Shown here: positions 7,816-48,831 of the stretch, piece after piece
Layout of the letters: every line of letters begins with the position of its first letter
Numbering within the stretch: the stretch's first letter is position 1
Assembly: GCA_944384195.1 (NCBI GenBank)
Contig: CALWSK010000001.1
Span: 1-64,000 of the forward strand
DNA length: 64,000 nt
Direction: 5' to 3'
Origin: an uncultured Clostridia bacterium
Lineage (GTDB): Bacteria > Bacillota > Clostridia > Lachnospirales > CAG-274
The notes under the pieces: model-generated
Databases searched by the model: none
What the model was told of the DNA's origin: nothing
The model's input: only the letters and a program-made list of their open reading frames with translations
Program-made: the position numbers and the translations under genes

Positions 7816-8592
7816 CTATTTGATATATTTATTACAAACAAATAATGTCCCTATATCTTTACCTTTTAAAATGTCATATAAAATATTTATATCTTTTCCA
7901 GAAGCTATAACCATATCCGCACTATTCTCACAAACAATTTTAGCAGCAAAAACCTTAGTTTTCATACCACCAGTTCCTAAAGAGCTAATAGTATCTTTAG
8001 CTTTTTTTTCAATATCATTATCTATCTTATATACTGTACTTATAAGCTTAGCCTCTTTATATATATTAGGGTCTTTATCATACATTCCTTCTACATCAGA
8101 TAATATTATCAAAATATCCCCTTCTAAAAGATTACAAACATATGATGCTAATATATCATTATTTTCAAATTTATTTAATATAATATCATTTTCATTTATT
8201 ATAGGCACAACATTATATGCTAACATTTCATTTATAGTGTCTTTTAAATCTGTTTTCAACTCATTTTCTTCTAAAGCATCTTTATTTATCAAAAGTTGTG
8301 CTATAGTTATATTTTCTTTTTCAAAAATCTCAACTATATTTTTTATTAAAATAGCCTGTCCTATAGAAGCTAAAGTTTGTATTTTTGCATTACTTTTAAG
8401 ATTACTTTTACCAAGACCAACTGCTCCAGAAGTTATAACTATAAGTTCTTTTTGTTCATTTTGTAAATTTTTTACTATTTTAGATAAATTTTGTATAACA
8501 TTTTTATTTATACCATCAGCACAAACAAGAGAAGTTGTTCCTATTTTTAAAACTATTCTTTTGTGCTCTTTTATTCTATTTCTAAAATCCAT
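7816..8592 (-). CDS. proB: Glutamate 5-kinase (short form without PUA domain)
   Basis: 258 residues of the amino-acid kinase fold, phosphorylating glutamate as the first step of proline synthesis. Visible: VLKIGTTS near the N-terminus, the glycine-rich ITSGAVGLGKS, VVPIINEND (substrate binding), LSDVEGMYDKDP and SSLGTGGMKTK. The C-terminal PUA domain of the E. coli enzyme is absent, as in many Firmicutes. There is no proA next to it; instead it sits nine bases downstream of mrp. It has its own weak AAGG ribosome site and a terminator after it. The fold also covers acetylglutamate and aspartate kinases, but the motifs favour ProB. Confidence 0.88.
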   Translation of the reverse strand: MDFRNRIKEHKRIVLKIGTTSLVCADGINKNVIQNLSKIVKNLQNEQKELIVITSGAVGLGKSNLKSNAKIQTLASIGQAILIKNIVEIFEKENITIAQLLINKDALEENELKTDLKDTINEMLAYNVVPIINENDIILNKFENNDILASYVCNLLEGDILIILSDVEGMYDKDPNIYKEAKLISTVYKIDNDIEKKAKDTISSLGTGGMKTKVFAAKIVCENSADMVIASGKDINILYDILKGKDIGTLFVCNKYIK

Positions 8593-22250: not shown

Positions 22251-22775
22251 TTAAAATGTATCTAATATTTTTAATGTTTTATAATATGAAATATCATTCC
22301 ATCTTCTAGCATATGAAAAAGGACATTCTTTTCTACTAATTTCAAATATTTCTCCTTCTTCCAGTATTATAAAGTTTTTTAATTCTTGTATAGTTTTATT
22401 AATATCAACTTTTAAATATAAATCCTTTTCTATAGCCATTTCTATTTGTTTATGTTTAATGTTTATTCCAATATACATATAATAATCAAAAACAGCTTGT
22501 ATAAAATTTTTAGGTAAGGAACAAACTGTCAAAAATTCTATTTCTTCATTATTATTAATTGAATTCAAAATTCTACTTCTATTATTTTTTCTTTTTAATT
22601 GTAAAATTCTTTTGCTTTTTACACTTTCACTTTCAAATTCAATATAATTTGGTTCATAATTATACTCTAAAACTTTATTTTCACAATAATTTAACCAATT
22701 TAGCCAGTTAAAATTATCTTTCATCTTTCCTTTTAAAGTTACTCCAACTACCATTTTATCAAACTCTTCTAACAT
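22251..22775 (-). CDS. Putative immunity protein for the Rhs nuclease toxin
   Basis: 174 residues from the ATG at 22775 (MLEEFDKMV); the ATG at 22784 overlaps the GGAG site and is unlikely. Soluble and acidic-basic mixed, no signal or membrane segment. I do not recognise the family. Its role follows from position: it begins 14 bases after the stop of the Rhs gene whose tip is a PD-(D/E)XK-like nuclease, shares its ribosome site with that stop, and is followed by a terminator. The gene is intact. Confidence 0.6.
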   Translation of the reverse strand: MLEEFDKMVVGVTLKGKMKDNFNWLNWLNYCENKVLEYNYEPNYIEFESESVKSKRILQLKRKNNRSRILNSINNNEEIEFLTVCSLPKNFIQAVFDYYMYIGINIKHKQIEMAIEKDLYLKVDINKTIQELKNFIILEEGEIFEISRKECPFSYARRWNDISYYKTLKILDTF

Positions 22776-22789
22776 AATAAACATCTCCT

Positions 22790-27147: not shown

Positions 27148-28374
27148 TTAATTAATTTTATTATATAATCCTGTTAAAATATCCATAGCTACACTTGTCT
27201 TAGTACTACTATATATAACTTCTTCCCAAGAACCATACTTTTCAAATAATTGATCTGATTTTGGTCCCTCCTCTCTACAATATTGTAATAAGTTTCTTTC
27301 TTTCATACTTTTTAGCCCTTCTAAATTATTAGAATCTATATATGATTTTATTCTATCATTATTTCTAGTTTCTACTATTATGCTAGCTATATCTTTATCA
27401 GAAAGTCCTTGTTCTTTAAAACACTTAACTTTATTTTCAATTTCTAACCTTTTTATTTTTAATTTTTCATGATATTTTATTCTCTCCTTTCTAGCGTATT
27501 CTACTTCTTCTGAGTTTGTCCAATCTATACCAAATTTTTAAAGAGAACCTCCTTTTCTAGCCGAATAACCATATATAGCTTTACTATTTTCTTCTATTTG
27601 TTTAGAGATATTTGGATTATTTAATACAATTGATTTTATATCATCTATTTTTTTACCTTTTTTATTATTTTTTCTTTTAGCTTCAATACTATCATTTTTC
27701 TTATATGTTTTATTGGATAATTTTGGTACATCTCTTTTTAACTTAAAATTTTTACTTTTTTTCTACCTTTTTTTCTTGAAAAAGCACTTATACCATTTTC
27801 AACAAACACTCCTCCAACCATTTCAGTAACAAATGGTATTGCATTTTCAAGTACACTATCATTTTCAGTTTCTTCTATTTCAGTATTTTCTTGATTATTT
27901 TCTTTATCTTCAATCATTACTTGTCCTGAATCTAATGGTTCTATTATTCCTCCATGTCTACATATTAAAAATGATTTTGTTGTTACTGCTCTATATCCTT
28001 TGTTTTCATCTTCAGCATTTCTAAACTTATCAAACCCATCTTTATCTCCATTATCTACTATTCTTACATCTTCTTTTGTATCTCTCCAATTTCCTATTAT
28101 ATTGGGTATACATCTTGTTCCTTTTACCACTTGTTCTATTGGATTGCCTTCTTCATGATACACTATTTTTACTAGTTTTACACTTTCGCTTTTTAATACT
28201 GGACTCCCCGAACTACATACTCCAAAATACTTTATGTTTTCTTCTAGCTCTTTATCTAATTCGTGTACCATTGAAAACCTTCTACATATACTACGTGATC
28301 TTTTAGCATATCTAGTTTTCTCTGGTGGCTTCCACAGCTACATTTTAATGTTGCTTATCTTACTACATATTCTT
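27148..28374 (-). pseudogene. PAAR-like (DUF4280-type) toxin gene 1, multiply broken
   Basis: Reading across frames restores one protein. N-terminus: EYVVR-ATLKCSCGS and DHVVYVEG, then FGVCSSGSP and CRHGGIIEPLDSGQ; this is the cysteine-patterned PAAR-like domain of DUF4280 proteins that cap contractile injection systems. After a low-complexity linker comes a tip with YGYSARKGGSL, FGIDWTNSEEVEYAR and, at the end, LFEKYGSWEEVI, a tail I have seen on polymorphic toxins but cannot name. Damage: TAA at 28355-28357, a one-base loss at about 28277, a lost A in an A7 run at about 27757, and TAA at 27538-27540. Immunity gene intact 15 bases downstream. Confidence 0.7.
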
Positions 28375-30956: not shown

Positions 30957-31490
30957 TTATTTAAAATAAAAATGTTTATATATTTCTAAATCATTTGTGT
31001 TTAGTATAATAATTTCTTTATTTATATTTTTGGCATAGTTTAGAGTGTTTTTAGTACCACTTTTATTGCAATTTATATCATAAACTCCAAAAATAATATT
31101 AGCCTTATCTACTAAATATTTATTTCTCTTAAAAAAACAATCATCAGTATAATTTTCTTGTAATAAGATTATTTTAGTACAATTATTTAATATAATTTTT
31201 AGCCTATCTTTGTATGATTTGCTCCAATTTTGTTCAATACTATTACAAGGTAGTATACAGTAAAGTTTTATATCATTATATTTTTTCATTAATTGCAATA
31301 CTATTTCACCACACCATATATCAACACCCATTGCACAACCTGTTAAAAATATTTTAACACCGCCTAGGTACATTTTTTCTATCTGTTCAATTATTTTAGC
31401 CTTTAATTTTATACACTCTATATCTTCTTCATTATATTTAAAACTAAATTTACTTGGTCTATGTCCAGTAAATGAACAAATTTTATTCAT
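30957..31490 (-). CDS. SLOG-family (DUF1273/YpsA-like) nucleotide-binding protein
   Basis: 177 residues, intact. It starts MNKICSFTGHRPSKF, the signature of the YpsA/YoqJ-type SLOG family, and continues with the Rossmann-like glycine segment FLTGCAMGVDIWCGEIVL. SLOG proteins bind nucleotides or nucleotide-derived ligands; several take part in phage-defence signalling and others are phage or ICE passengers. No TIR or effector domain is fused. Divergent from the XRE regulator at 31625. Function in this element unknown. Confidence 0.8.
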   Translation of the reverse strand: MNKICSFTGHRPSKFSFKYNEEDIECIKLKAKIIEQIEKMYLGGVKIFLTGCAMGVDIWCGEIVLQLMKKYNDIKLYCILPCNSIEQNWSKSYKDRLKIILNNCTKIILLQENYTDDCFFKRNKYLVDKANIIFGVYDINCNKSGTKNTLNYAKNINKEIIILNTNDLEIYKHFYFK

Positions 31491-32391: not shown

Positions 32392-34212
32392 TTATCTTCC
32401 CCCACTTTTGCCCATATATTCAAGTTTATACTCAGGTACAGTAAAGTTTATATGCAACCTTTTAGCTCCAGCCATAAATAAGGCGTGTCCTCGTTTTTTA
32501 GCTAGTAATAAGTCTTGTTCTGCTTCTGTTAAATCATACAATTTAGTTGTTTCTTTTAAATTTTGTCCATCTGTTCCCATAAGTATTTTATAGGTTGGTA
32601 TATCCAAAAGTGCTTGTCCATATTGTTTTATGTTATCACTTAAAAAATCTACTACACTATGGGATATTACTGCAAGACTACCCTCATACTTTCTAACTCT
32701 TTTCATCATATTTCTTAAATACACAAGTGATTGAGGCACTTTTTCATCTATCATTAAATAACTTTCATCACATATTAACATTATTTTTTCATTTCTATTT
32801 TTACATATCTTTTCCCAACAATAAGTAAGTATATTGAAATATTGCGTCCTTTTTACACTATCAGAAGTACCTTGTAAACCGTTGGTATCAAAGCATATAA
32901 AATTACTATTATCTTCAACTGTTGTGTATCCATTCCATATAAAACTATCACTTCCTGTTGCTATATCCAACAATAGTATTGATATTTGCAATAGTACTTC
33001 ATTTTGACTTTCTTTAAATTCTTCTAAAATTAAGTTATATAAATCTTTAAATGTTGGAAAATCTTCTGCTTTCAATTTATATATATCTGTATTCCAATCT
33101 ATACCAAAATTTTTATAAAGTTTAACTAACATATTTTTTAAAATAGCCATTTGCATATCTGTTAAAGAGCTATTATATAGGCTAAAAAATATCTCTAAAT
33201 TTTTTATATGTAAAGCTAAATCGTTAATTCCGTCATCTTCATTAAATAACTTATCTGTTTCATTTTCATCATCTTTAGGTAAAGGTCTTATTTATAGTGG
33301 ATTTATTTTTCCTTTCGTTCCACCAACTGCATTTATAAGATTACCACCTAAATTTTTACATAGCTCTTTATATTCACTTTCTGGGTCTATTAAAATAATT
33401 TTTGTACCATTCATATACTCGCTTATAATTATATGTTTTATAACAGTAGATTTACCAACACCACTATTTCCCATTATTACAATATTTGAATTAGTCCTAT
33501 CGCTTGCTCTTTTCCATATATCTGTTATAACAAGCCCACCATTACTATCTGTAGCTAAATAGTATCCTGCTCCGTCATTAAATCCACTTCTAGCAAAAGG
33601 AAAGCCACCTACAAATGTTGATATAGGTACAATTTTTTGTAGTATATTTTCTATCTTTTCACGATTAGTAAAAGTAGGATATATATGCTTAAATAATTCT
33701 TTTTGTAAATTAGGTATGGCTCTCATCTTGCATTTTAATACACTTATCATACTTTCCGAACGCCTACAAACTCTCTTAAAATCTTGTTCATCTCTAGACA
33801 TTGTAGCAACACAAACTGTCATAAGTGCTACTGTTTCATTTTCTCTGTCTATTTGAGCAATTATTTTCTCTACATCTTCTGCCGATTTTTCTGCTCGTTG
33901 TCTAGTTAAAGGGTCTTTTGAAGATTCTGCTAAACTTCTATCATAAGTAATATTTCGGGATATAGATGCTATTAAATTTGTATTATCAACAGGTTTTATG
34001 CCTATTGTTACAACTGTATTAGGAATATTTGTTATTTTAGATAACCATTCACTTTCTACTTTATTAGGATACTTTATAATGCCATAAATTTTGGTAAAAC
34101 TTTCACCTATATGTAAAGTATTTTTGTTAAATCTCAAGCCTATTGGAGTTAATATATCAAGCATTGGATTAGTTTGCTTTTTCTTATTTTTAATATTTAT
34201 CTTCTTAGCCAT
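32392..34212 (-). pseudogene. VirB4/TraE-type conjugation ATPase with one in-frame stop
   Basis: About 605 codons of the ICE-type VirB4 ATPase. Walker A is visible as MGNSGVGKST, preceded by the N-terminal barrel-like region (GGFPFARSGFNDGAGYYLAT). After KINPL comes a TAA at 33292-33294 where the family has a Gln codon (INPLQIRPLP); the frame then continues through MLICDESYLM (Walker B), MKRVRKYEGSLAVISHS and LAKKRGHALFMAG to the normal end. A single substitution would restore it, so the decay is recent. It powers the type IV secretion channel of conjugative elements. Confidence 0.85.
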
Positions 34213-37378: not shown

Positions 37379-37394
37379 ATTGAAATATAATTTT

Positions 37395-39985
37395 CTAATA
37401 CCCTATTTTAGGTAACTTACCATTAAATGTTGGCGTTGTGCTTATTACTGTTGTTGTAAATTTATCTTCGTGTTTTACTGTTTGCATATCGTATCTACCA
37501 CCAATAGTAAGTATATTAGTAAATTGTTCATTTTTCTTAACATTACTATTTACTTTTGCATAAAGAAATGGCTTTTCTACTTCTCTAAAACCAACACCAA
37601 CTATTTCAAACTCATATTTTAAGTCGGTAATATATTCGCCTTGTTGTAAGCCTTTAGTTAAGTCTATTTCATAAACTCTATCAGTAAATAGATTATCTTT
37701 AAGTACTTTAAATTCCTTGTTTTTATTAGTTTTATATACAATTCTATACTTCATATTTTGGTTAAAAGTACCTGTAAATAACCTTTGTACTCTTATAGCA
37801 TTTGGTAAACTATCGTGTATATAAAAGTCTTCTAAAGCAACAGTAGATAAGTTTTGTAAATTATTAAAGTCATATCTTATTGTATCTCCTGCTTTAGTTT
37901 CTTTAACAGTAGATTTTTCGCCACCAGTTTTTAGCTCAACAGATTTATTTTCTACTTCAACTTTTACAATCTCGCCATTTTCTTTAATGCTTACTTCAAA
38001 TTCATTTTCATTTAAAACATAATAACTTGGAGCTTTAGTTTCTTTAATGATATATTCTCCATAAGGTAACTCGCCTGTTCTAGCTATACCGTTGTAGTTT
38101 GTAACAACTATTGTTACTTCTTTACCTGTTGCTTTTTCATATATTGCAAATTCTGCACCTTTTAAATTATCTCCGTCAAGTTGCCCTGTGATTTGATTAT
38201 TTTTGTTTCCTATTTTATGAATTTCTATTTGGCCAAAAATAGGAGTATTAACAAATTCAACTTTTGTTGTTTTACCCCATTTAAGCTCAATCATTTTTTC
38301 TCCATCATTTTTAATGTATCCGTCTTTAGCTTTAGTTTCTTTAATATAGTAAGTTCCTTGTGCAAGTTTACTTTCAAGATAAATTCTTCCGTCTTTATCT
38401 GTTGTAAATTTACCCATACTTTGCTTTTTACTATTTAAAAGCTCAAATTCAACACCAGATATAGGCTTTTTAGTGCGTTCATCTATTTTTAATAAATCAA
38501 GTGTTGCAAGAGGGTAGTTTTCCCATTCAACCATTGTTTCAGTACCTATATCAATTTTAACTTTTCTAACACCTTTATCAAGTGCATAACCTTGTGGTAC
38601 TGCCATTTCTTCAATCAAATATGTAGCAGATTCAAGTTTATTTATAAGATTAATTTCTCCCCATTTATCTGTTACAAATTCGCCTATATTTTCGCCATTT
38701 TCTTTAGTTATTTTAAACTTAACATTAGGTATAGGTTTTCTTGTAACATAGTCTATTTTTTTAAGTCTTATACTACCTAGTTTATCATTTTCAAATATAA
38801 CATTAGTATAATTATTTGTTTTAACTTCTACATTTTGAACATTATTGTTTAAAGCATATCCATTAGGAGCTTGTATTTCTTTAACAGTATACTAACCTTG
38901 CTCAAGTCCATTAATACTAATTATACTATTGTTATCTGTAATATAGTTAGCTCCAATTAGCTCTCCATTTACTTTTCTAACTTCAAATTTAGCACCTTGA
39001 AGTGGTTTAGAAGTTTTACTATCTCTTTTTAATATTTGTATACCTGCCTTTTTAGAGTTAAATATTTCGACTTTTTGAGGTTCTCCCTGTTTCAAATGCA
39101 CAAGTTTTACGGTATTATCAAGAGCATAACCACTACGAGCTTGTATTTCTTGTACTTTATAAGTACCTGTTTTTAAATTAGGTATATGGATAAAACCTTT
39201 TTCATCTGTTCTAAATAGTCCGTTTCTTGTTCCTACAACTTGCCCTTTACTATCTGTTACTTTAAATATTGCATCTGATAAAGGATCTTTTGTAATACTA
39301 TCCATTTTTTTAATACGAAGCCCTGCATTTTTTCTGTTTTCAAAAGTTACTGTAACAGAAGAAGTTTTATCTTTATTAAGCCATATTGTTTGAGCTTTTT
39401 CAGTCATAACATATCCTGTTGGAGCTTTTGTTTCTTCTATGATATAGCCACCTGCTTTAAGCCCTGTTATAACTGCAACTCCGTTATGATTAGTTATTAC
39501 ATTAGCAATAGTAGTTCCGTGTGTACCACTAGAATTACCATCAGATATAATGCTTATACTAAAATGAGCCCCTGCAAGTGCTTCTCCTGTGTCTGCATCA
39601 ACTTTCTTTATAACTATTGCATTTTTAGGAGTATTTTCAACTGTTATTTCTTTGCTTTCTCCTGCTTTAAGATAAAATTCATAAGTACCTGTTCCTTGAA
39701 TTTCATATCCTTGTGGAGCTTCTATTTCTTGAATCTTATACCAACCTTCTTTTAGTGTACCTGCTTCAATTTCAATCTTTCCATTTTCATCAGTTACATA
39801 ATCATTAACTTTTTCTACTGCTCCATTTTGTGTAGTGGCATAAAATAAGCTAAACTTAGCTCCTTGTAAAAGTTCTTTTCCTATCCTTCCTATTTTATTA
39901 ATACTTAAATTAGGTTTTTTAAGATTTTCAAAAATTATTTGTACTTGATTATCTCCTGTTTGATTTGGTTCAAGGAAAACAAACT
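37395..39985 (-). pseudogene. SpaA-like surface protein with Cna-B repeats, 5'-truncated and with one stop
   Basis: A string of about eight Cna-B/SpaA domains, each with the pattern LQGAKF-x(n)-G-x-Y-x-(I/V)-xE-x-x-APxGY. These form isopeptide-bonded rods on conjugative-element surface proteins. A TAG at 38892-38894 (after INGLEQG) interrupts one domain; the frame continues through YTVKEIQAPNGYAL to an end reading FNGKLPKIGY. That end resembles an LPxTG sorting motif with Thr changed to Ile and no membrane tail. The 5' end is fused to the ParA remnant at about 39980, so signal peptide and first domains are lost. Confidence 0.85.
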
Positions 39986-40770
39986 TTATTTGTAGGTAAA
40001 TATTCACATATAATTTGTTTATAAACATTAGCCTCGGCTACTTTAATGCTATTAGGTATAATATAATTAAAAATATTAATATTTTCTCCAAAACTACTAT
40101 TTAAAAGTTTTTTAACTTCTTTAGATGTCTTTATATTTTTACTATCTATTGTTATAAGTATTTCATATATTTTTAGATTTTGATTTACTTTCTTTATCAT
40201 CAAATAGTATCTTATTAATTCGATTAAACCTTTTACCAATAATATTTCAGATTGTGTAAGTATAATAAGACTATCTATAATGACCATTACATTTATCATA
40301 GGTGTTCCAATCTGTAGCATACAATCTATTATTATATAATCATAATCTGATTTAACTTCATCAATAAATTTTTTTAATATATATTATCGTAGATAGTTTA
40401 CTTTCTAAAGAAAATAAATTTTCATTATATTGTACTAAATCTATACCTTTTGTTTTTATTATGTAATCATAATAAAGAAATACATAGTCACTATTAATTA
40501 TAGCATTTAAAATAGTTGATATAGTTATACCTATGTTGTTAGGATTTTCTTGTCCCATTAGCATAGTAGTATTAGCTTGTTCATCTTTTATCTCAAAGAT
40601 ATGAGGACAAAATATTTAGATTTTGGCTTTTGATTTCAAAAGTAATGAAAAATCTATTAGCAATACTTTTTTATTTTACTTACCTAGTAAGCATACTAAA
40701 TTTATTGAAGTAATCGTTTTGAAACCTCCCCTTTCTAAGTAAATATCACTATAACTTTGTTCATAAAAAT
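39970..40770 (-). pseudogene. ParA-family partition ATPase remnant
   Basis: Reading across frames gives a degenerate Walker A (GGFKTITSINLVCLL), VLLIDF, QANTTMLMGQENPNN, IDLVQYNENLFSLESKLS, DYIIIDCMLQIGTP, and near the end IPNSIKVAEANVYKQII: the pattern of ICE ParA proteins. Damage includes a TAA after the P-loop helix, a frameshift in the A7 run at about 40378, loss of the D-x-Q block and truncation by fusion with the SpaA gene at about 39980. The two ORFs at 39970-40320 and 40361-40564 are parts of it. Confidence 0.75.
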
Positions 40771-42909: not shown

Positions 42910-43833
42910 TTATCCTACAAAGATTTGAGTCCATTTAGTCCCACGTACAGCAACGCCTATATACTTAAAATTTGGGTCCAATATATTTTCTCTATGTGAT
43001 GGAGAAGCTAACCAACCATTAGTAACTTCTTCAGGATTCATTCCATATCTTGCAATATTTTCACCAGTATAAGTATATCCTAAATTATCTGGAATATATT
43101 TAAATATCTTACCATATTTTGGACTTATATGTGAAAAATACTCATTTTCATACATATCTGTAGATTTAAATTCTGCTAATTCCATCAAATCTTGATCAAT
43201 CTCTAAAGGTTTTAATCCATATTTAATTCTAGCATCATTAACAAGTCTTATAACTTCTTCTTGTGCATATATTATCTCATCTATGCTACAATCTTCATAA
43301 GCCTTATTACTAAGAATTTTATTTTGCTCAGCATTTGTTAAATCATTTATTTTGTTAGATAAAATAGTAGTCTTAGTCTTAGGTTCCCATTTTATTTCAA
43401 AACCAAAAAGCTCTGCTAAATTTCTTACTGACATAAATATTGCACCATCTTTAATTTCTGCTACTGGTCCTAAATTTTTAGCTAATTGTTTTTCTATTCC
43501 ATTAAAAATAATATTATTTGTATTACAAATAAAAGTAGCTATATCATCTTTATATTTTATGGTTACTTTTTTTCTTATATCATCATAACTAATATTTTCT
43601 TTAGCTATTCCAAAAGATATAGGAACAAATTTTAATGGAATCATTACAGAATTAGTTTGTTTTTGTATGTAAGGTGCATTATTAGTTTTAGCATATATAT
43701 CATTAATAATAGCTTTTTCTTGTCCTACTGAAATTTTAATAATTCTTTCTTGTGCATCTGCCGTTATAGATAAATTTAATATTGTAGCTCCTAACATTAA
43801 AGTTCCTAAAAAATATTTTATATTTTTTTTCAT
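42910..43833 (-). CDS. Secreted CAP/SCP-domain protein with copper-amine-oxidase-N-like domain
   Basis: 307 residues with a signal peptide (FLGTLMLGATILNLSITADA). The first domain (about 30-165) has the CuAO_N1 fold pattern seen in many clostridial secreted proteins (VMIPLKFVPISFG, IFMSVRNLAELFGFEIKWE). The second (about 185-307) is a CAP/SCP domain like YkwD: IRLVNDARIKYGLKPL, YFSHISPKYG, GENIARYG and WLASPSHRENILD with the conserved His and Glu. Bacterial CAP proteins are extracellular and some are found in spore coats. AAGGAGG stands before the ATG. Confidence 0.9.
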   Translation of the reverse strand: MKKNIKYFLGTLMLGATILNLSITADAQERIIKISVGQEKAIINDIYAKTNNAPYIQKQTNSVMIPLKFVPISFGIAKENISYDDIRKKVTIKYKDDIATFICNTNNIIFNGIEKQLAKNLGPVAEIKDGAIFMSVRNLAELFGFEIKWEPKTKTTILSNKINDLTNAEQNKILSNKAYEDCSIDEIIYAQEEVIRLVNDARIKYGLKPLEIDQDLMELAEFKSTDMYENEYFSHISPKYGKIFKYIPDNLGYTYTGENIARYGMNPEEVTNGWLASPSHRENILDPNFKYIGVAVRGTKWTQIFVG

Positions 43834-44091
43834 AAAAGTCCTCCTTAAATTATCACAAGCTAATACTTTTAATTGTATTCTTTAAAATATTTTTATAATT
43901 TACCACCTTATTTTTTATTTATATATTATAATTTATCTTATTGCTTTTTTCAATATTAATTATACATAACATTTTATATATTTTAGCTTATTTTCACTTT
44001 TATTTCAATTAAATAAACTAATATTTCTAATATAAAAATTAAGAAAATTTCCTACTTTTTTATTTATAATTATAGAATTAGTTTTAAAATA

Positions 44092-44732
44092 TTATTTAAT
44101 TTTATTAAAATTATTATTTAATAAATCTTGTAATTCATTTGCAAAGCGACATATATGAAAACCATCACACACAGCATTATGTACTTGTATAGATAAAGGT
44201 AATAAATATTTATCTTGTTCTTTAAAATATTTACCCATCGTAAATATTAACAACAAATAATCATATCCATGTTTAAAATTTAAATTAAACCCTTCAAAAG
44301 TTGTCCAAGGTATCATATAAATAGAAAATGTATTTATAAGAGTATTTTTTTCAGTTCTAATTCTTGTTTATTTTTAAACATATCTATATCTAGTTTGTAA
44401 TTATTAAAAAAGATTTGGTAATATTCATCATAATTTGTCCATAAATTAGAAAAAGTTTCTGTTTCCTTATTAAACACAGTATAACATAGTATCATTTTAT
44501 TAAAAATTATTAAATTTCCATTAGCATCTTTTCAAGTTTTAAATTAATCATATTTATTAACAATATTTGTAATTGAATATATCATTACCGGATAAAGTTT
44601 TAAATTATATTCTTTTATTTTACTTATATCTAATTTAATAGTCATACTATATATGCATGGTATATTTTTATAATAATATTCAAAATAATCTTTTCTAATC
44701 AAATTATCAAAATCAATATATCTATAACTCAT
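44092..44732 (-). pseudogene. Chloramphenicol acetyltransferase remnant
   Basis: Both ends of a type A chloramphenicol acetyltransferase are visible: YRYIDFDNLIRKDYFEYY at the start, ETETFSNLWTNYDEYY in the middle (another frame), TFEGFNLNF, and SIQVHNAVCDGFHICRF near the end. At least two frameshifts (about 44545 and 44345) break it. The catalytic His of the HHAVCDG motif reads Asn. Both the frame and the active site are lost, so the strain is not predicted to be resistant through this gene. Confidence 0.85.
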
Positions 44733-44855
44733 AAAATATCATCCTTTAAAAATATAAAATAAAGCAATAAAAATTAATATTAAAATATTTATATTTTATA
44801 TAATAATAACTAAATTATAAATCTATATTCTCATTTTAATATTTTAAAATATTAA

Positions 44856-44915
44856 ATAAAAAAGTTGTATACTTTTTATAACAATATTTCTTATATTGCC
44901 AGTATAGTATACAAC
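44856..44915 (-). terminator. Terminator of the folT-thioesterase operon
   Basis: Minus strand GTTGTATACT, about 30 bases, AGTATACAAC, then TTTTTT. The stem resembles the M60 gene terminator. Confidence 0.7.
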
Positions 44916-44925
44916 ATTTCAAAAT

Positions 44926-45339
44926 TTAATTTTTATAGTTAGAGTTTATCAAGTTATATAATTCTAAATCAAATTTCTTTAAATTTATTAGTTTAAAATT
45001 TTTATCTACAAAAGGGTGAACTGTATGTCCTATATTTATTAAATTTTTTTCTTTATAAACCTTATATTCAAATTCTATTTTTACATTTGTCATATTTTTT
45101 ATATATGTTTCTACAGTTAAGATATCTTCATATAAAGCTGGGCGTATGTACTTAGAGCTAAGCTCACTAAGAGGTAACATTATACCTCTATCTTCTATAT
45201 CACTATAAGATATTTTAAAAACTTGTTTTATAAAATTTGTCCTAGCTTCTTCATACCAAATAGGATATACAGAATGATGAACAACTCCCATTTTATCTGT
45301 TTCTTGATAACGTACTTTAATATTTGTTTTAAAACACAT
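44926..45339 (-). CDS. Acyl-CoA thioesterase, 4HBT/YbgC family
   Basis: 137 residues of the hot-dog fold. The active-site region reads VRYQETDKMGVVHHSVYPIW-YEEAR, with the Asp-x-x-Gly-x-(I/V)-x-(H/N) pattern of YbgC/FadM thioesterases. AAGGGTG lies before the ATG. It is the second gene behind the tetrahydrofolate riboswitch, 28 bases after folT, and is followed by a terminator. The physiological acyl group is not evident; a link to folate metabolism is suggested only by co-transcription. Confidence 0.85.
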   Translation of the reverse strand: MCFKTNIKVRYQETDKMGVVHHSVYPIWYEEARTNFIKQVFKISYSDIEDRGIMLPLSELSSKYIRPALYEDILTVETYIKNMTNVKIEFEYKVYKEKNLINIGHTVHPFVDKNFKLINLKKFDLELYNLINSNYKN

Positions 45340-45367
45340 AATTTCACCCTTTTCAATATAAAAGATA

Positions 45368-45931
45368 TTATTCTTGTTTATTATTCAAATTTAATTGATA
45401 ATATATTTTATTTACAGCTTTTAATATTATATACATAATAAGACAATGTATAGGAATAGTAACAGATTCTTTAAATGCTCTTGCTGGTAATAAAACTAAA
45501 AATCCTTTTCCTGTAAACATAGTTACCCAAATAGTACCAAAAGTAAGATTAACTATTAAAGAAATTAATATTTTTGCTAATATTATTCTTAACAAAAGCT
45601 TTTTTGTTCCATACTTTGATCTATATAAAAAAAAGCCATAAATTAGTCCTCCTAATATAGCATTAAATGTAAATCCAAAAAAATATGATCCCTTAGGATT
45701 CATAAAATGAGTAATTACATCTATAGTGCCTCCTAATATCCCAGAGACCACTGGACCAAATAAAAATCCAGCCACACTATTAGCTATAAAAGAAAATCCA
45801 ATAACTATAATATTGCCTATGTGGATAGATTGAGTGCTCAGTATAAGCGAAAGAGCAAGTAAAAATCCACAAATAACAATAGTTCTAGGTTTTTTTAGCT
45901 CTAAAAAAGAGCTTTTCATTAATTCTAACAT
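45368..45931 (-). CDS. folT: Folate ECF transporter substrate-binding subunit FolT
   Basis: 187 residues with about six membrane segments. The S-component features are visible: LALSLILSTQSIHIGNIIVI (AxxxA-like interface helix region), FSFIANSVAGFLFGPVVSGI, and PKGSYFFGFTFNAILGGLIYG, as in clostridial folate-family S components. It uses the shared EcfAA'T module, not in this window. The tetrahydrofolate riboswitch directly upstream identifies the substrate well. AGGAGG precedes the ATG. Confidence 0.9.
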   Translation of the reverse strand: MLELMKSSFLELKKPRTIVICGFLLALSLILSTQSIHIGNIIVIGFSFIANSVAGFLFGPVVSGILGGTIDVITHFMNPKGSYFFGFTFNAILGGLIYGFFLYRSKYGTKKLLLRIILAKILISLIVNLTFGTIWVTMFTGKGFLVLLPARAFKESVTIPIHCLIMYIILKAVNKIYYQLNLNNKQE

Positions 45932-45952
45932 ATTATACCTCCTAAAGTAAAA

Positions 45953-46075
45953 TATGCTACAAACATAGAAGGACTATGTTAGCAGCGGGATGCGGAAAAT
46001 ATATCGCAAGAACTCTTTTCGTATAATAAGCAACTCCCCGTCTTATTATCACTTAACGCATATTTTCCTACTCTG
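45953..46075 (-). promoter_or_regulatory. Tetrahydrofolate riboswitch with expression-platform hairpin
   Basis: On the minus strand the aptamer runs from 46075 to 45983: AGAGTAG, the conserved GCGTTAAGTG, a GGGGAGTTG loop, ACGAAAAG, CTTGCG and finally CGCATCCCGCT, matching the conserved blocks of the THF-I riboswitch. Downstream (45984-45953) a hairpin TGCTAACATAG/CTATGTTTGTAGCA, then TATTTTACTTTAGGAGG. The hairpin has only a weak U-run, so control may act on transcription or on access to the AGGAGG site. Confidence 0.88.
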
Positions 46076-46144
46076 CATAAAAATTAAATTTTCTACATTA
46101 TACCATATTTTTTATATTTAGTAAAGTAATAATAAAAATATCTA

Positions 46145-46310
46145 AAAAAGAACCATAGCTCCTATAATTGTATTCTTAGAAGTATCTTCTGATAAATATA
46201 TATCAACATTATATTTTAGATTTCTTAAAAAATTATCTTTAAATAAACAATAACTTTTTGATATTTATCCTCCTAAAATTATTGATTTATAATCAAAATC
46301 TGCTAGTACT
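46145..46310 (-). pseudogene. ROK-family sugar kinase C-terminal remnant
   Basis: About 55 codons on the minus strand read SIILGG, stop, ISKSYCLF and end NTIIGAMVLF, the pattern of the last segment of ROK glucokinases/fructokinases (IVLGGGIS ... ILGAA). A TAA replaces the third glycine, and everything upstream is gone. It lies head to head with the phosphomannose-isomerase remnant. Confidence 0.5.
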
Positions 46311-46339
46311 AAATTAAAAAAATTGGTATAATGAATACT

Positions 46340-47440
46340 AAGAAGACTTTTTTATAAAAGAAAACATGGAAAAAGCAAAAAAACAAATTAAAGGTAAAAC
46401 TCTAATTTGCGGAGTTGGTGCTAGTCTTATAACAAAAGGAGACTTATATATATATGCCGATATATCAAGATAGGAAATCCAACTTAGATATAGACAAGGT
46501 ATGACAAACTGAAATGTAGAAAATAAAGATGCTCCAATATTAAAAAAATATAAAAGAGGATATTTTTTAGAATGGGGAATGGCTGATAGACATAAAATAG
46601 AAAACTATAAATATTTTGATTTTATATTAGATACAAATCAAAAAAATAATCCTAAAATGATTACTAGCAAAGCTTTTTTTGAAAGACTTTTACAAGCTAG
46701 TAAAAATGGTTAAAAAATATTTGTGGACTCGATAAAAATCGTAAAAGTTTCGCTTGGGGTTTTGATGGAATAACAGAAGAAAATAGTATAGTTCTTAGCT
46801 ATAATAATATTGATTTTGAAACGCCAGATATAAATCTTGTCTTTTGTGAACCCATAAATTTACTAGGTGAAAAATTATATGCTAAATTTGGTAAAGAATT
46901 CCCTATAAGATTTAATTTTTTAGATACTATGGAATTTGTAATTTATCACTTCAAGTTCATCCAGTAACAGAATATATACAAAATAAATTTGCTATGAACT
47001 ATACTCAAGATGAAAGCTTCTATATCATAGATGCAAAGGAAGATAGCTATGTGTATTTAGGGGTTAAAGAAAATATAAATAAAAATGATATGATAAAAAA
47101 TTTAAAAGATGCTCAAAATAAAAATATAAATTTTGAAGTAAAAAAATATATAAACAAAATTCCAGCTAAAAAACATGACCATTTTTTAATATCTGTTGGT
47201 ACTGTTCATTGTTCTGGTAAAAATACTGTTGTATTATAAATAAGCTCAATACCTTATATCTTTACTTTTAAATTATTGGATTGGGGAAGATTAGGCTCTG
47301 ATGGATTACCTCGCCCTATCCATATAGAACACGGAGAAAAAGTAATATACTCTAAATCTAGAAGAAAATAACAAAAATATATATGATATATTTAAAAATA
47401 TGCAAAATGATTATAAAAGAATAATTACTTTTATGATATA
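46340..47440 (+). pseudogene. Phosphomannose isomerase-type protein remnant
   Basis: Reading through several stops and frameshifts: KTLICGVGASLITKGDLYIY, KKYKRGYFLEWGMADRHKIE, NLLGEKLYAKFGKEFPIRF, QVHP, YTQDESFYIIDAKEDSYVYL, KKHDHFLISVGTVHCSGKN and [19 protein letters not shown]. These are the blocks of the large class I mannose-6-phosphate isomerase proteins of Clostridia, including the metal-binding QVHP and the HDH-x(7)-GTVH cupin residues. The 81-codon ORF at 46994-47239 is a surviving piece, and the 3' end is missing. With the ROK remnant it marks a lost sugar-utilisation locus. Confidence 0.65.
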
Positions 47441-47518
47441 AAAGTTTAAAATATAAAATATATATTCTTTAAATTTTAATTTATAATAATAGTTTATATT
47501 ATATTTTTACTATAATAA

Positions 47519-47674
47519 TTAATTATAAAAATTTAATAATTTAAATATATTTGCAATTATAGTACCTAGCTTATAACTAAATATTATAGAAATACATATA
47601 ATATTAATATAAATAGCCCACTTTATTAAACTAATTTTATAAATTTTTAAAAAGCAATTATAAATATAATCCAT
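47519..47674 (-). CDS. Small hydrophobic peptide 1 of the bacteriocin-immunity-like locus
   Basis: 51 residues starting MDYIYNCFLKIYKISL, with AGGAG seven bases before the ATG. One membrane segment (IYINIICISIIFSYKLGTII) and a short basic end. It resembles the peptide at 48131-48244 in its MDY start and in the G-x-I-I/G-x-x-I-G-x-x-I end. Lies 63 bases downstream of the immunity-like gene. Could be a leaderless bacteriocin, an accessory immunity peptide or a toxin; unassigned. Confidence 0.5.
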   Translation of the reverse strand: MDYIYNCFLKIYKISLIKWAIYINIICISIIFSYKLGTIIANIFKLLNFYN

Positions 47675-47737
47675 AAAATCAACTCCTATATTTTTAAAAA
47701 TATCTCTTATATCTTTTTAAAACAAAATAAATAATTT

Positions 47738-48061
47738 TTACTTTCCTAAAAAACTTATACCAACAATTCCTATTCCTAAATTTTTTTTAAAAAGATTATT
47801 TGATGAAATTTTTATATAAAATTTTCCAACGTCATCACTAAAAGTTTGATTAACACTTAATTTTTTTAATGACAATATTCTTAACTGTTCTGCTAAGATT
47901 GTTAATTCTCTTTCAAATTCTTTACCTTTTTCAATAGAATTCTTAAAATTTATAAACTCAATTCTTTCATCTTCAAAAATTTCTTTATTTAATATTAAAT
48001 CATAAACTTGTAATAATAATTCTTCTTTAATCAACTTCTTATTTTTTTTATTTTTTAACAA
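47738..48061 (-). CDS. Bacteriocin immunity protein (EntA_Immun-like)
   Basis: 107 residues from a TTG with AAGGGG eight bases before it. The helical pattern QVYDLILNKEIFEDERIEF, KNSIEKGKEFERELTILAEQ, LRILSLK and VGKFYIKISS fits the four-helix immunity proteins of class IIa/Blp bacteriocins (EntA_Immun family), which sit in the cytoplasm and protect the mannose-PTS receptor. The C-terminal hydrophobic tail LGIGIVGISFLG is unusual. Flanked by two short membrane peptides. No recognised double-glycine bacteriocin or transporter is in the window. Confidence 0.65.
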   Translation of the reverse strand: MLKNKKNKKLIKEELLLQVYDLILNKEIFEDERIEFINFKNSIEKGKEFERELTILAEQLRILSLKKLSVNQTFSDDVGKFYIKISSNNLFKKNLGIGIVGISFLGK

Positions 48062-48130
48062 AATATTAACCCCTTTAATAAACTAAATAAAAAATAAATT
48101 ATTTATATGTATTATATAAAAATATAACTA

Positions 48131-48244
48131 TTAAATTAAATAACCAATAAATTTTCCTATTCCATTTCCTATTATGTAAGAACAAATTAAAATAATTATT
48201 GTTAAAAAGTATTTATTATTAAATATATTATTAAAATAATCCAT
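48131..48244 (-). CDS. Small hydrophobic peptide 2 of the bacteriocin-immunity-like locus
   Basis: 37 residues, start MDYFNNIFNNKYFLTI, preceded by GAGGTG six bases upstream. A single membrane segment (FLTIIILICSYIIGNGIGKF) with three small-residue turns (GNGIGKFIGYLI) at the end. Related in plan to the peptide at 47519-47674. It is 70 bases upstream of the immunity-like gene. Candidate bacteriocin or accessory peptide; no leader sequence seen. Confidence 0.5.
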   Translation of the reverse strand: MDYFNNIFNNKYFLTIIILICSYIIGNGIGKFIGYLI

Positions 48245-48410
48245 ATAATCACCTCATATTATAAAATATTATCATTAATTTTAATACTAATTATATTTTT
48301 ATTATATAACAATATTTAAAAACATTCAATATACATAGTTAATAAAATTTAATACTATTATTTATACATATTTCTATTTAATTTTAATTATATATAAACT
48401 TTAGATATAT

Positions 48411-48445
48411 AAAAAACTCTTTACTAAATATTTATTTTTATATTC
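48411..48445 (-). terminator. Terminator of the tsaE-to-VOC operon
   Basis: Minus strand AGCTCTTTACTGAATAT, loop, ATATTTAGTAAAGAGTT and TTTTAT; stem of about nine pairs (CTCTTTACT/AGTAAAGAG). Confidence 0.75.
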
Positions 48446-48462
48446 AGTAAAGAGCTAATTTA

Positions 48463-48831
48463 TTATCTAATAGGTATTATTTCTGTCCAATAACCATCAG
48501 GATCATTTATAAAATAAATCCCCATTTCTTTATTTTCAAAACAAACACATCCCATTTCTTTATGCATTTTTAAAGCATTTTCATAATCATCTGTTCTCAT
48601 AGCTAAATGTATTTCATTATCCCCAAGATTATAAGGTTCTTTTTTATCTCTTAACCAAGTTAGCTCTAAAAGATGATTACCTTTTTCATCTCCTAAAAAT
48701 ACTATCTTATAGCTCCCATCAGACGCTTCTTTTCTTTTTACTTCTTTAAGATTTAAGGCTTTTTGATAAAAATCTAAACTTTTTTCTAAGTCAAAAACAT
48801 TTATATTATTATGACAAAAATTAAATTTCAT
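48463..48831 (-). CDS. VOC-family protein (glyoxalase I-like)
   Basis: 122 residues with two beta-alpha-beta-beta-beta units. Visible metal-ligand blocks: FCHNNINVFDLEKSLDFYQ, HLLELTWLRD, EIHLAMRTDDYENAL and NDPDGYWTEIIPI. The arrangement H...E...H...E matches lactoylglutathione lyase-type VOC proteins. In a Gram-positive without evident glutathione synthesis the substrate may be another thiol adduct. Last gene of the operon, 20 bases after the MATE gene. Confidence 0.85.
   Translation of the reverse strand: MKFNFCHNNINVFDLEKSLDFYQKALNLKEVKRKEASDGSYKIVFLGDEKGNHLLELTWLRDKKEPYNLGDNEIHLAMRTDDYENALKMHKEMGCVCFENKEMGIYFINDPDGYWTEIIPIR

Follow-up and report, generated by a model that had tools for sequence, protein, structure and literature searches.

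A putative orphan immunity cassette comprising an LciA-like protein and two short membrane peptides in an uncultured Clostridia bacterium

The window, i.e. the whole analysed stretch of 64,000 nucleotides from an uncultured Clostridia bacterium, carries three minus-strand open reading frames between positions 48244 and 47519, which encode, in this order, a 37-aa peptide (p37), a 107-aa immunity protein and a 51-aa peptide (p51). We consider it probable that this trio is an orphan immunity cassette. This reading is supported by the family and the predicted fold of the 107-aa protein, by paralogues of all three genes in a bacteriocin cluster elsewhere in the genome (contig C13), by a man-PTS operon and by the lack of a local leader peptide. 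From here we infer the expression of the cassette, the protection it confers, the targets it recognizes and any part that p37 and p51 play in immunity. The features of the locus are as follows:

48131 to 48244, minus strand: p37 membrane peptide, first gene of the trio, ATG start, AGGTGA-type ribosome site, C-terminal GNGIGKFIG
47738 to 48061, minus strand: LciA-like immunity protein of 107 aa (EntA_Immun, PF08951), TTG start
47519 to 47674, minus strand: p51 membrane peptide, ATG start, AGGAGT-type ribosome site, predicted helix 2-50
48301 to 48329, minus strand: candidate promoter, best site 5' of the trio, TTGAAT-17-TATAAT, 10/12
48271 to 48387, minus strand: region 5' of the trio resembling the DNA upstream of two C13 bacteriocin precursors

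The coordinates, ORF lengths, MDY starts and ribosome sites reported for the locus in a first-pass annotation were confirmed. The glycine-spaced hydrophobic segments it described for both peptides are present in p37 (GNGIGKFIG), but p51 contains a single glycine. The genes are separated by 69 nt (p37/immunity gene) and 63 nt (immunity gene/p51), and Shine-Dalgarno-like motifs precede all three starts compared to 148 of 4770 (3.1%) ATG/GTG/TTG triplets in the window. Since contig C13 contains a homologue of every one of the three ORFs, the trio can be taken to exceed chance. The similarity of the 5' region to the C13 precursor upstream DNA amounts to 71-74% over 97-123 columns and is AT-rich and weak, the promoter scan carries no statistical weight (13 sites found versus 17.0 in shuffles), and no terminator was found for the trio. 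A bacteriocin leader was likewise not found near the trio; the sole leader-pattern match in the 64 kb (38205-38237) lies within a long SpaA-domain protein. Thus the earlier observation that neither leader nor transporter is evident holds locally for the leader, while a transporter does occur in the sister cluster on C13.

The genome (1.66 Mb, 13 contigs) contains four EntA_Immun genes, one in the window, two on C13 and one on contig C6. The region C13:37000-50000 (locus L008) harbors a multi-peptide class II bacteriocin cluster (L008:1950-9350) with the following constituents:

Exporter: C39 peptidase/ABC protein, followed by an HlyD-type accessory protein
Class IIa precursor: PF01721, 56.9 bits, core YPNGVYC, with its own EntA_Immun gene
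Lactococcin-A-like peptide: 8hfs_A at E 1.4e-4; Pfam Lactococcin 21.2 bits versus a cut-off of 23.1
L008:6685-7005: LciA-like sister of the 107-aa gene, overlapping the end of the lactococcin-A-like precursor
L008:7325-7465: p51 homologue, 46-aa ORF, starting 11 nt past the stop of a double-glycine precursor
L008:7657-7791: p37 homologue, 44-aa ORF, 191 nt beyond the p51 homologue
Remainder: further double-glycine peptides, then an Rce1-like protease

The lactococcin-A-like peptide also matches GarQ_core (E 4.6e-6), below the cut-off of that model, and a relaxase downstream of the cluster scores 147.5 bits, just under the MobP3 cut-off of 150. The lactococcin-like ORF has no ATG, GTG or TTG start and the exporter is frameshifted within its C39 domain, so that the C13 cluster may be incapable of export unless these defects are assembly errors. 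At L008:8012-8104 the C-terminus of HlyD occurs a second time as a remnant. Upstream of two of the bacteriocin precursors the perfect 16-bp palindrome TTAATTAGCTAATTAA occurs at L008:5852-5867 and 8184-8199 (2 matches versus 0.20 expected from shuffles); it is a possible regulator site and is absent at the trio. Plasmid relatives of the class IIa precursor were found in 113 records, nearly all from Enterococcus, where such precursors are common. The EntA_Immun gene on C6 (L009:5807-6109), for which no leader-type peptide was found in the 12-kb stretch read, is possibly a further orphan immunity gene.

Comparison of the window trio with its C13 counterparts yielded protein identities of 75-76% for the immunity protein, 70% for p37 and 63% for p51, and at the DNA level gene-by-gene blocks of 84.5% over 317 bp, 81% over 186 columns and 72% over 262 columns. 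As the gene order differs (p37, immunity gene, p51 in the window versus immunity gene, precursor, p51, p37 on C13) and the blocks match gene by gene, the arrangement looks like separate immunity units that were shuffled rather than copied as a single block. Purifying selection acts on the immunity gene (dN 0.13, dS 0.51, dN/dS about 0.26, Fisher p 4e-5 for window versus C13). For the small ORFs the ratios are 0.74 (p51) and 0.62 (p37), and when pooled they cannot be told apart from neutrality (p 0.31); dN/dS does not prove their coding status, and p37 and p51 could therefore be decaying. Modest support for coding comes from a neutral simulation, in which the chance of the small ORFs remaining stop-free was 0.10-0.11 and 0.18-0.21.

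The setting of the trio bears on the same question. In seven of seven same-genus genomes a MATE-type transporter gene and a TPR-protein gene are direct neighbors with the same orientation (the TPR match is fragmented in one of them, G043); in the window the TPR gene lies on the opposite strand from the MATE-type gene, with 42910-48831 in between. This insert comprises, besides the trio and two broken genes, a thioesterase gene, a glyoxalase-like gene and a folate-type ECF gene preceded by a THF riboswitch. Its landmarks, together with one element outside of it, are:

45981-46077, minus strand: THF riboswitch, ahead of the folate-type ECF transporter gene
44092-44732, minus strand: fragmented chloramphenicol acetyltransferase gene, with PF00302 matches in both terminal fragments
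46366-47380, plus strand: gene interrupted by several stops, located on the strand opposite to the trio and just downstream of it
32392-34212: split TraG/VirB4-like pieces

For the interrupted gene at 46366-47380 a mannose-6-phosphate-isomerase-like protein was considered early on, an idea that was dropped as no match to such a family was obtained. About 8 kb further on, SpaA-type pilin genes (37383-39987) are 96-99% identical to C13:21583-24735. With respect to this identity and the split TraG pieces, a decayed conjugative element related to the one on C13 has probably passed through the window, and it may have brought in the trio. Elsewhere in the window an RHS-repeat protein (PF05593, 23900-26452) and three 177-aa ORFs (22251-22784, 27738-28271 and 30957-31490) were noted; as the second shares only 24% and the third only 28% identity with the first, they perhaps do not form one family.

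In this setting the trio might be debris of a lost bacteriocin island, in which the 107-aa gene may still work and the small ORFs drift without activity. The neutral-like dN/dS of the small peptides, the broken chloramphenicol acetyltransferase and the second interrupted gene in the surrounding insert, the split TraG/VirB4-like pieces and C13-like pilin genes of the window, and the GC content of the trio (15% versus 25% for the window) are consistent with such decay. However, all three ORFs are intact and have ribosome sites, the insertions of 9 and 12 nt by which the C13 homologue differs from p37 keep the reading frame, and both the stop-free simulation and the purifying selection on the immunity gene point in the other direction. 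We therefore regard a decaying remnant as unlikely, though it deserves to be taken seriously, and favor the orphan immunity cassette.

The assignment of the 107-aa protein as an EntA-type immunity protein proved right and can be sharpened to LciA-like. The protein scores 32.1 bits against EntA_Immun (PF08951), whose gathering cut-off is 22.1, and the match spans profile positions 1-73 of 73. A sequence search of the PDB at E <= 10 gave four matches, the best two of which are LciA, each with E 0.0022, a weak similarity. The AlphaFold model, which was built from 7 sequences, is an antiparallel four-helix bundle (pLDDT 80.8, last 17 residues below 50). While Foldseek returned no match for it at E <= 0.001, structural re-alignment to 214 chains placed LciA on top (Z 9.4), together with PisI (9.0), PedB (8.2) and the mundticin immunity protein (7.6). 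Bacteriocin-type immunity proteins account for five of the seven top structural rows, a count that includes 2fu2 at rank 4, which we take to be the pyogenecin immunity protein as the alignment names its locus only. Since helical bundles reach middling Z scores by default, it is the sequence family that carries the argument. Judged by this profile match, the protein is a true member of EntA_Immun, sharing with PedB, PisI and mundticin immunity the family score and the predicted four-helix fold, and differing in its occurrence in Clostridia, where the family is rare.

Lactococcin A immunity protein LciA from Lactococcus lactis (PDB 5LFI, 8HFS) is the closest known relative in that it is the best PDB match by both sequence and structure, although the identity in the structural alignment is only 16%. 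Furthermore, the sister gene on C13 overlaps with the gene of a lactococcin-A-like precursor, whereas the window copy has no adjoining bacteriocin. In PMC10783117 the man-PTS is described as the target that lactococcin A and class IIa peptides open, with immunity proteins observed inserted into the pore from its cytosolic side; an LciA model is described in PMC8538875. Genes for man-PTS IIAB, IIC and IID stand in a row on contig C2 (single IID match, E 4.2e-110), and an LciA-like plug therefore has something to act on. The 107-aa protein would work like LciA, but we do not file it as a lactococcin A system because no leader-bearing precursor lies near the trio; only the C13 sister has one. In the proposed mechanism the trio would be made up of three genes for self-protection against class II bacteriocins that have become separated from the bacteriocin genes to which they originally belonged. 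From the cytosol, the four-helix LciA-like protein would insert into the complex of man-PTS and bacteriocin and seal the leak that a lactococcin-A-like (class IId) peptide causes. The single-helix membrane peptides p37 and p51 would probably each act against a different double-glycine-leader bacteriocin. Carried together, the three genes would render the cell resistant while it produces nothing itself.

For p37 and p51 no match above cut-off was obtained in Pfam or NCBIfam; DUF1322, a candidate for p37, stayed below its cut-off and was dismissed. The 19-residue hydropathy maxima are 2.12 (p51) and 1.87 (p37), and p51, the one of the two peptides that was modelled, is predicted from a two-sequence alignment as one continuous helix (residues 2-50, pLDDT 84.0). 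As reported in PMC6957408, CbnZ is a 42-aa protein with one transmembrane domain encoded immediately downstream of its bacteriocin genes, whose expression increases resistance 250-fold, and other immunity proteins of two-peptide bacteriocins are similarly short (BrcI 53 aa, EnkIaz 52 aa, AbpIM 55 aa). In size and in having one hydrophobic helix p37 and p51 resemble such peptides (about 40-55 aa, one TM helix), p37 being slightly shorter than CbnZ. The place directly downstream of a bacteriocin gene is shared by the p51 homologue on C13 only, and neither p37 nor p51 adjoins a bacteriocin gene in the window. No alignment was obtained for either peptide with a 55-aa pMP118 ORF that we took as AbpIM from its length and place, the one member of this group included in the comparison. 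By analogy, p37 and p51 are probably single-helix immunity peptides like CbnZ, a function that we infer from gene position.

Two guesses had been offered in the first-pass annotation, leaderless bacteriocins and helper immunity peptides. The latter is the better one, given the p51 homologue directly behind a double-glycine precursor and the existence of short single-TMD immunity peptides such as CbnZ. In the former case p37 and p51 would be secreted without a leader and kill relatives, with the 107-aa protein protecting the maker, in keeping with their small size, their hydrophobicity, their net charges of +1 and +4, the missing leader and the adjoining immunity gene. The known leaderless bacteriocins, however, fold as compact multi-helix peptides and p51 is predicted as one long helix, the sister copies sit among double-glycine precursors, EntA_Immun proteins serve leadered class IIa and IId peptides, and the trio has no dedicated exporter. 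Taken together, we hold the leaderless guess to be improbable. Even less probable, in our estimate, are type I toxin-like membrane peptides that flank the immunity gene by accident. Type I toxins are short and possess a single hydrophobic helix, and p37 and p51 fit in length and helix (the latter predicted for p51); yet Rfam finds only the THF riboswitch in the window, and homologues accompany the same immunity gene at a second, rearranged locus on C13.

In the 48 family genomes searched, the own one among them, neither the 107-aa gene nor p37 or p51 had an accepted relative beyond the genome itself. The match to the 107-aa protein in G024 was weak (E 9.3e-4), interrupted by four internal stops and hence discarded. 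In a collection of genome contigs none of 286 pattern matches to the 107-aa protein was confirmed, and viral contigs gave none. Plasmid relatives were found in 11 Lactococcus records (30-35% identity). EntA_Immun scored above cut-off in three of 391 genomes of the class, own included. One of the other two (G216), the only one among 71 genomes of its family with such a gene, carries an LciA-like gene that is 46% identical, on a 6.5-kb contig whose ORFs, inspected by eye, include no evident bacteriocin; in the other (G215) one of the immunity genes lies beside a class IIa precursor whose core is related. For p37 the matches at E <= 0.001 in G055 and G384 lie within open frames of 789 and 805 aa and the one in G435 lies opposite a 422-aa restriction-specificity-like gene (named by eye), and all were rejected. 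Further searches outside the genome returned nothing for p51 and nothing besides these three matches for p37. Weak matches of the small peptides (E <= 0.1) in 12 and 10 other family genomes (best 0.0026 and 0.011) were treated as noise. Lack of conservation of the peptide ORFs had been named in the first-pass annotation as a refuting outcome; the answer is mixed, since they are conserved as paralogues inside the genome but were not found in the 47 other family genomes.

In PMC12947273, class II clusters, class IIa included, are reported for the Clostridium estertheticum complex, and PMC4860687 describes pneumococcal blp loci with surplus immunity genes, short membrane proteins and CAAX proteases; for this reason neither class IIa in Clostridia nor surplus immunity is new. 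The blp loci share with the present genome a surplus of immunity genes over what the bacteriocins need and short membrane proteins, and the C13 cluster likewise contains an Rce1-like protease, whereas the window trio lies outside any bacteriocin operon. Topic searches of the literature, none by organism, found nothing describing such a trio. The immunity protein belongs to a known kind, and the unassigned peptides p37 and p51 are candidates for new immunity peptides. A bolder proposal is that p37 and p51 are the first members of two single-helix immunity peptide families not described before and that the trio is a multi-bacteriocin resistance cassette assembled gene by gene in Clostridia, in which two membrane peptides accompany a man-PTS plug in the cytosol; we put this forward tentatively and with some doubt.

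If our reading is true, a very-low-GC Clostridia species would possess bacteriocin machinery of the lactic-acid-bacteria type and keep spare immunity genes apart from it. The trio would then be a case in which bacteriocin resistance can spread or persist separately from production, and the paired loci would provide an internal control for testing the role of the two short membrane peptides.
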